Origin: Singulisphaera sp.
GTDB lineage: Bacteria > Planctomycetota > Planctomycetia > Isosphaerales > Isosphaeraceae
Reading direction: 5' to 3'
Assembly: GCA_027451445.1 (NCBI GenBank)
Contig: DAIDJG010000389.1
Location: forward strand, 1 to 47,141
Length of the DNA: 47,141 nt
The translations under genes and the position numbers were made by a program. Each line of letters begins with the position of its first letter. The first letter of the stretch is position 1. The notes beneath the pieces were generated by a model. That model did not search any database. It was not told the origin of the DNA and saw only the letters and a program-made list of their open reading frames with translations. Shown here piece after piece: positions 36,721 to 38,203 of this stretch.

Positions 36721-36739
36721 CATTTCATCGTGAGGCAAT

Positions 36740-38203
36740 CTGGAACTCCTCATCCTCGGGGCAACCGCGCGGGCCGCGGCGTTTTCTGCCCTTCGCGCGG
36801 GACTGAGGCCGATTTGTTGCGACATCTTCGCCGACCGTGATCTTTGCGCGGTGGCTACCGCCCATCGCGTCCCACTCGCGGACTATCCGGCCGCGTTCGT
36901 TCTGCTCGCAGACTCGCTTCCTGCGACGCCCTGGCTCTATACGGGCGGGTTGGAGAACCATCCTGGGCTGGTCGATCAGATCGCCGAGCGACATCGTCTT
37001 CTCGGCAACGGTGGCGCAAGCCTGCGATCGGTTCGTGACCCAATCCAATTGGCTCGAGTGATCGCGCAGGCTGGTCTCCCGTGTCCCCGGGCCGAGCTGA
37101 ACCCGGCGGCAGTGCCTTGCGATGGGAGCTGGCTGATCAAACCGCTTCGTTCGGCGGGTGGAGCGGACGTCCGGATTTGGGACGGGACCTTCCTGAGTGC
37201 ACAACCCTGTTACTTCCAGGAGCGGATCACAGGACCGAGCCTTTCCGCGCTGTTTCTCGCTCGCGAGGATGGATGCGAACTGGCCGGCATCACGGCCCAG
37301 ATTCTTGGGCGGCCAGGTGCTCCCTTCGCGTATGTCGGGAGTCTTGGACCCTGGACGGTCTCGCCTCGAGAAGAACGAAACGTTGAGGAACTCGGCCGAT
37401 TGATCGCGGCTTCGTTTGGCCTACGAGGACTGTTCGGAATCGATTTCATTCTACGTGACGGTTTCCCCTGGCTCGTCGAAGTGAATCCGCGATACACCGC
37501 GGCTGTGGAAGTGCTGGAGCTTGGGACGGGGCGAACATACCTCGACGCGCACTGGGCAGCGTGTGATCCCAACGGTTGTCCCTCACGCGTTGTGCGTGAG
37601 GGCGCCGAGTACCCAGGCGCTGTAGTGTCCCCTTCGGAAGGGGGCCGATGTGTTGACGTGACGTACAACGCCAACCGCATTCGCGCGATGAGACCAACTA
37701 ACTCCCCCCCTTGGGAAGGGGGGGTAGGGGGGGTGGGGAATCAGCGCCCGCACGCGGGTGATCCGGTCGCGCTTCAAACATTGGGCGCAGGAGAGCAGAT
37801 GGCGGCGGAATCATCCACATCGGACGGCCACTCCCCACCCCCCCAACCCCCCCTTCCCAAGGGGGGGAGTTATGAGGTTCCACCGATTTCGAGAGTCCAG
37901 TCCAATTCGATGCCTCGTGTCGCGCCGCGCGATCCGCCAATCGCCCCGAGGCTTGTGGGCAAACTTGTGCTATTCGCCGACCGCCCATGCCGTTTTCCTG
38001 AACTGAGCGCGTGCGACGAAGCCAATTGGACACTCGACCCATTCGCGATGCCCGAGATCGCAGACGTCCCCTGGCCCGGCACAACCTTCGAGCCGGGCGA
38101 GCCTGTCCTTACCGTTTTCGCCACAGGGAACAGCGAAGCATCGTGCCGAGAAGAGCTGCAAAGGAAAGCTCAACTCTGGAAGGCACGCCTGACAAGCCTC
38201 TAA
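36740..38203 (+). CDS. ATP-grasp protein of the H4MPT C1 cluster, with an in-frame palindromic insertion
   Basis: About 487 residues. The N-terminus LELLILGATARAAAFSALRA is the expected Rossmann-like start of ATP-grasp proteins found with H4MPT genes, but it needs a CTG start (36740): the in-frame stop TGA 36731-36733 excludes anything further up, and the nearest GTG (36851) would remove this domain. GAGG lies just upstream. The ATP-grasp core includes WLIKPLRSAGGADVRIWD and GLFGIDFILRDGFPWLVEVNPRY. Residues about 275-400 are unlike the family: they include a palindromic element read as SPPWEGGVGGVG...PPLPKGG. The normal C-terminal part resumes at LVGKLVLFADRPCRFPEL. It probably ligates an amino acid or glutamate in cofactor synthesis (inference). 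Confidence 0.8.
   Translation: MELLILGATARAAAFSALRAGLRPICCDIFADRDLCAVATAHRVPLADYPAAFVLLADSLPATPWLYTGGLENHPGLVDQIAERHRLLGNGGASLRSVRDPIQLARVIAQAGLPCPRAELNPAAVPCDGSWLIKPLRSAGGADVRIWDGTFLSAQPCYFQERITGPSLSALFLAREDGCELAGITAQILGRPGAPFAYVGSLGPWTVSPREERNVEELGRLIAASFGLRGLFGIDFILRDGFPWLVEVNPRYTAAVEVLELGTGRTYLDAHWAACDPNGCPSRVVREGAEYPGAVVSPSEGGRCVDVTYNANRIRAMRPTNSPPWEGGVGGVGNQRPHAGDPVALQTLGAGEQMAAESSTSDGHSPPPQPPLPKGGSYEVPPISRVQSNSMPRVAPRDPPIAPRLVGKLVLFADRPCRFPELSACDEANWTLDPFAMPEIADVPWPGTTFEPGEPVLTVFATGNSEASCREELQRKAQLWKARLTSL
37580..37602. repeat. Short perfect hairpin inside the ATP-grasp gene
   Basis: CCCTCACGC (37580-37588) and GCGTGAGGG (37594-37602) pair perfectly around a 5-base loop. It lies at the beginning of the stretch that has no counterpart in the family, about 100 bp before the larger palindromic element, and may belong to the same block of inserted repeat sequence. 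Confidence 0.6.
37700..37871. repeat. Intragenic palindromic element, 40-bp arms
   Basis: The left arm 37700-37739 (AACTCCCCCCCTTGGGAAGG...) and right arm 37832-37871 pair at 39 of 40 positions. A 92-bp centre separates them. The element begins exactly on a codon boundary of the ATP-grasp frame and has no stop on either arm, so it is translated (residues 321-378). Design and composition match the element at 22383-22476, which suggests one family of mobile or dispersed palindromes. Confidence 0.88.

Follow-up and report, generated by a model that had tools for sequence, protein, structure and literature searches.

The ATP-grasp gene of a planctomycete C1 cluster carries a pair of long inverted repeats within its reading frame, which raises the question of where this segment came from and how the encoded protein accommodates it. 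The gene lies in the window, that is, the whole stretch of 47,141 nucleotides analysed here (contig C389 of a 10.9-Mb genome). Its product matched ATP-grasp_3 (PF02655, E = 1.6e-20), and a match was present in 41 of 45 family genomes. The preliminary description of this DNA had assigned the gene to a C1 cluster, and rightly so, since fae and a methylene-H4MPT dehydrogenase domain adjoin it.

36740..38203, + strand: ATP-grasp gene of the C1 cluster, with a probable CTG start at 36740 and the stop codon at 38201-38203

We recomputed the geometry of the repeat. The arms at 37700-37739 and 37832-37871 were complementary at 39 of 40 positions (40 of 41 with one outer base added), and the left arm began on a codon boundary, 37700 being phase 0 of the frame that opens at 36734. 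The arm match, codon-boundary start and in-frame position had all been claimed before, as had the peptides NSPPWEGGVGGVG and PPLPKGG; the translation contained NSPPWEGGVGGVG and PPLPKGGSY. The palindrome CCCCCCCTTSSSAAGGGGGGG occurred twice in the window (≤3 mismatches), compared with a mean of 0.00 in 100 shuffles. The parts of the inserted segment are as follows.

37580..37602, + strand: perfect hairpin CCCTCACGC-GTTGT-GCGTGAGGG at the insert's left edge
37629..37644, + strand: small extra palindrome CCCCTTCGGAAGGGGG within the insert's left portion
37699..37739, + strand: left arm, encoding NSPPWEGGVGGVG and containing the palindrome CCCCCCCTTGGGAAGGGGGGG; 4% pairwise difference among copies
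37740..37831, + strand: element core, type A; ~66% pairwise identity with other copies
37832..37872, + strand: right arm (inverted), encoding SPPPQPPLPKGGSY; 7% pairwise difference among copies

The left-edge hairpin was considered as a member of another repeat family and rejected because it is unique in the genome.

The repeat had been described as a local palindrome, a view that the genome-wide counts corrected. Copy statistics were obtained from pattern counts together with 58 non-overlapping stretches spanning 355 kb. The 39-nt arm was found in ~172 copies (≤3 mismatches) across the 10.9-Mb genome and a 21-nt palindrome at 207 exact sites, compared with 0 for the reversed-pattern control in each case. 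A BLAST search of the segment against this genome returned ~40 copies that include the core, among 234 candidates, and a search of plasmids gave no match. A 17-mer occurred 235 times in this genome compared with 0-18 times in 44 family genomes, and the palindromes in those genomes were only loosely similar, with a mostly different centre. The other genome of the genus contained arm-like pieces only.

Alignment of 40 copies (41-44 copies for the flanks) revealed the usual arrangement, in which inverted arm pairs surround a ~94-nt core within an element of about 325 bp. Pairwise difference among copies was 4-7% in the arms, 34% in the core and ~50% just outside the arms, and weak conservation extended ~75 bp beyond each arm, the two sides being inverted relative to each other. 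Adding twice 75 bp to an arm-to-arm length of roughly 170 bp gave an element of ~320 bp, an estimate that fits the inserts of 108 codons (contig C467) and ~110 codons (contig C113) found relative to related proteins. BLAST of the flanks against other copies gave no match, so the outer borders rest on the alignment and on empty sites.

37624..37947, + strand: probable full-length element of ~325 bp, comprising the arms and ~75-bp decayed outer flanks; its outer limits were deduced from the other copies and from empty sites

The consensus of these type A copies contained two essentially stop-free frames, one per strand, both of which begin with NSPPWEGGVGGVG because the arms are inverted repeats. 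In a second type, type B, these arms enclose another core. Three type B copies (L114, L116 and L104 on C382, C566 and C45) end at a common junction, CCCAAGTTTTGAAGTTGCGC, which gives the impression that another repeated unit is attached there.

Orthologues in named genomes were gathered with a family alignment, a scan with the single protein having given no match. The named relatives, among them Singulisphaera, Tautonia and Aquisphaera, identified the family as Isosphaeraceae. The window protein was longer than 27 family orthologues by 102-116 aa and longer than 56 measurable named loci by a median of 112 aa, which bears out the claim of about 120 residues without counterpart in the family. 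In the orthologues, a short linker connects the ATP-grasp domain to the C-terminal domain (beginning VGK), and it is in this linker that the insert is located. The alignment thus showed the segment to be absent from the Isosphaeraceae relatives. The preliminary description had correctly placed a palindrome inside the gene; the inserted stretch, at ~330-360 bp, is about twice the arm-to-arm segment that it had reported.

37580..37945, + strand: extra in-frame segment without counterpart in the orthologue alignment, an interdomain linker insert of ~112 aa; borders approximate

In the AlphaFold2 model, pLDDT was below 50 at residues 286-401 and at least 90 for 330 residues. On this model, the insert would form a disordered loop that links the ATP-grasp and C-terminal domains.

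We then analysed the placement of the other copies. Among the 46 type A copies sampled, 29 were in open frames that span at least 200 aa (element sense in 23, antisense in 6), 29 were inside or overlapping predicted genes and about 12 were deep in genes, fractions that may be overestimates as the sample was seeded with a genic copy. Seven of the eight type B copies were intergenic; the remaining one overlaps the end of a gene. Insert-free relatives were available for five host proteins. In the PMT_2 protein on C467, the flanking matches of two relatives (G001 and G038) abut exactly around the 108-codon insert; CobD on C113 carries ~110 extra aa, the PMT_2 proteins on C98 and C448 carry ~90 aa and ~88 aa, respectively, and the ATP-grasp protein is the fifth. 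Further hosts were recognised by domain matches that flank the element on one or both sides or are interrupted by it: an Eco57I methylase, a polyketide synthase (a frame of 2,819 codons), a GT87 protein and an FHA/TPR protein. The element is thus in frame inside at least five real genes and probably about twelve. These results support the earlier proposals that an in-frame palindromic element resides in a gene whose orthologues lack it and that such repeats add protein sequence, the same element being in frame in many other genes of the genome.

The element is present twice in one Eco57I-type methylase frame (L084, C72:2-2590), and one of these copies falls within the Pfam domain. Five hosts (L082, L094, L090, L089 and L086 on C411, C448, C467, C98 and C384) are multi-pass membrane glycosyltransferase-like proteins (PMT_2, GT87), families that, by inspection, seem over-represented among deep hosts. 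About half of the open-frame copies were near the 5' end of a gene, in many cases directly ahead of a stretch resembling a signal peptide; these copies may lie upstream of the true start. Four copies at the 5' end of long frames (L092, L085, L028 and L098 on C50, C86, C183 and C365) were observed just upstream of such a stretch.

The same ATP-grasp linker was surveyed in other bacteria. A Gemmata sp. MAG carried a 24-nt perfect inverted repeat there (L192:2293-2469), and three Gemmataceae MAGs carried other palindromes, of 17 nt (L195:2231-2299), 13 nt (L145:2266-2580, tandem palindromes) and 12 nt (L174). Inverted repeats of 14 nt (L161:2401-2481) and, in a gammaproteobacterial MAG, 31 nt (L169) were also detected in this linker, and in the remaining surveyed orthologues the longest inverted repeat in the linker region was 10 nt or less. 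The L192 and L195 inserts are dispersed high-copy elements of their own genomes, and four more L192-type copies (L208-L211) were found in long frames, reading as the same peptide. In three genomes, that of the window among them, this one ATP-grasp linker holds a high-copy palindromic element in frame, a different one in each genome. Unrelated palindromic repeats have entered the same linker in other bacteria, and repeats of this kind thus extend proteins again and again at linkers that tolerate them.

Several other explanations of the insert were weighed. The strongest of them, though improbable, is that the ATP-grasp gene is no more than a pseudogene or a relic with weak expression, in which the insert is tolerated junk. 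Its start codon gives this idea some footing: the conserved N-terminus offers no ATG, GTG or TTG in frame before residue 40, the first canonical in-frame start being GTG at 36851. At the position where the nearest orthologues begin with TTG or ATG (TTG in the two nearest), this gene has a CTG, at 36740, with GAGG before it. Against a relic, the frame is open over 489 codons with 35-57% identity to orthologues, the 38 columns that are invariant across 30 orthologues include the window protein, the AlphaFold2 model folds well, and the further genes that carry the element appear intact as well. Judged by the family-invariant columns, inactivity appears the less likely state of the gene, and the non-canonical start leaves some room for it.

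A somewhat weaker candidate is a coding element under selection, with the loop functional in the ATP-grasp enzyme and in the other hosts, for example as a proline/glycine-rich tether or interaction arm. The arms are indeed strongly conserved and encode near-identical Pro/Gly-rich peptides in all hosts, and the linker has gained unrelated palindromic inserts in several other lineages. However, the arms are conserved in non-genic copies too, which points to a constraint on DNA, and the hosts are functionally unrelated. In nine genic copies of equal length, core differences at the three codon positions were equal (0.35/0.33/0.36), so the core peptide shows no codon-position bias; the idea of a conserved peptide domain was dropped on this test. 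The disorder predicted for the loop also speaks against a selected function, which we consider unlikely.

The insert might instead be transcribed and left untranslated, through ribosome bypass of the hairpin or removal from the RNA. The RNA hairpin of the element is indeed very stable (-131 kcal/mol, z -9) and would be a strong structure in the message; yet the sampled deep genic copies are in frame and stop-free, which neither bypass nor RNA removal would require, and we give this explanation very little weight. An ancient family domain lost in most relatives can be dismissed, as no point was found in its favour, the segment is absent from the measured orthologues in the family and beyond, the same DNA recurs at numerous unrelated loci within this single genome, and no homologous segment was seen at the same site in diverged lineages.

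We therefore regard it as highly probable that the segment is one copy of a selfish mobile element (REP-pair- or MITE-like, ~325 bp), palindromic, non-autonomous and lineage-specific, that is tolerated in linkers. Such an element would have spread through this Isosphaeraceae genome, presumably with the help of a transposase supplied in trans. A copy landing in phase in a tolerant linker would add ~90-112 residues and leave the protein unbroken, and other landings in genes would have been purged, leaving the intergenic copies. In the ATP-grasp protein, the landing would have produced a long disordered loop between domains, probably translated and harmless. Some observations weigh against this reading: the very strong RNA hairpin could hinder translation, and none of the nine Y1_Tnp loci in the genome had the element in its flanks. 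By eye, about four of these nine genes (L042-L050) look RAYT-like (MPRTARA...). With ends ~50% different between copies and the nearest relative only ~70% identical at the protein level, target-site duplications were unreadable. Simple copy-and-decay does not explain why the arms are far more alike than the core (4-7% compared with 34% difference); gene conversion, recognition by a transposase and recent arm turnover are candidates.

A broader reading can be put forward tentatively. Palindromic selfish elements of Planctomycetes, and of some other bacteria, may have been shaped to be protein-compatible, being stop-free in one frame per strand and having an inserted length near a multiple of three, and might in this way come to occupy the coding portion of large genomes. 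Certain interdomain linkers hit repeatedly by unrelated families, that of the C1-cluster ATP-grasp being an example, would then provide a widespread route by which proteins gain disordered loops. We consider this generalisation possible and rather less likely than otherwise.

Comparison with known systems placed the element near several classes. Like MITEs, it is a non-autonomous inverted-repeat element within the 70-400 bp range and without a transposase gene, and by this structure it may be called MITE-like. MITEs with intragenic ORFs include enterobacterial RU-1/RU-2 (PMC2759123) as well as ERIC and Coxiella QMITE1 (PMC10969869). These too are non-autonomous inverted-repeat elements making in-frame fusions; however, those fusions were reported as individual cases, whereas here one family occupies many conserved genes of one genome.

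REPs are known from Planctomycetes, sometimes inside genes (PMC3733652), and REP/REPIN elements are accompanied by RAYT transposases (PMC3733652, PMC2817692). The present element shares with them an imperfect palindrome of 20-40 nt, a high copy number and frequent inverted pairs. It differs in that ~63% of the sampled type A copies are in open frames and about a quarter are deep in genes, whereas REPs are mainly extragenic, and in that none of the nine Y1_Tnp loci found has the element next to it. REP hairpins have a GTAG or CGTC tag at one end; here, some arms have GTAG after the palindrome and the others have GTTG. Because it is not mainly extragenic and has no RAYT attached, the element should not be filed as REP/REPIN.

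The preliminary description had likened the repeat to the palindromic elements of Rickettsia (RPEs), nearly half of whose copies in R. conorii are in ORFs (PMC10969869; also reviewed in PMC3733652). The likeness held for the way the elements work, in that both are dispersed palindromes with a usable open frame, placed in phase in unrelated genes and adding a peptide. It did not extend to identity. The host here belongs to the Planctomycetota (Isosphaeraceae) rather than the Rickettsiales and has a large genome of 10.9 Mb, and the unit is GC-rich and longer (~325 bp compared with ~150 bp). A second core type that is almost purely intergenic, and unrelated palindromes in one linker across lineages, also set the present case apart. 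By analogy, the element appears comparable to the RPEs and seems to form an independent family. A similar mechanism in other prokaryotes has been called "conceivable" (PMC10969869), and a literature search confined largely to non-subscription journals found no previous description of elements like these for Isosphaeraceae or Gemmata. Palindromic elements in frame have been known chiefly from the reduced genomes of intracellular bacteria; here, the conserved genes of a large planctomycete genome have been entered many times, with empty sites in relatives. One linker with inserts of different families across lineages provides natural replicates in the form of one enzyme that occurs both with loops and without them, and this makes it testable whether such elements are neutral or feed protein evolution.
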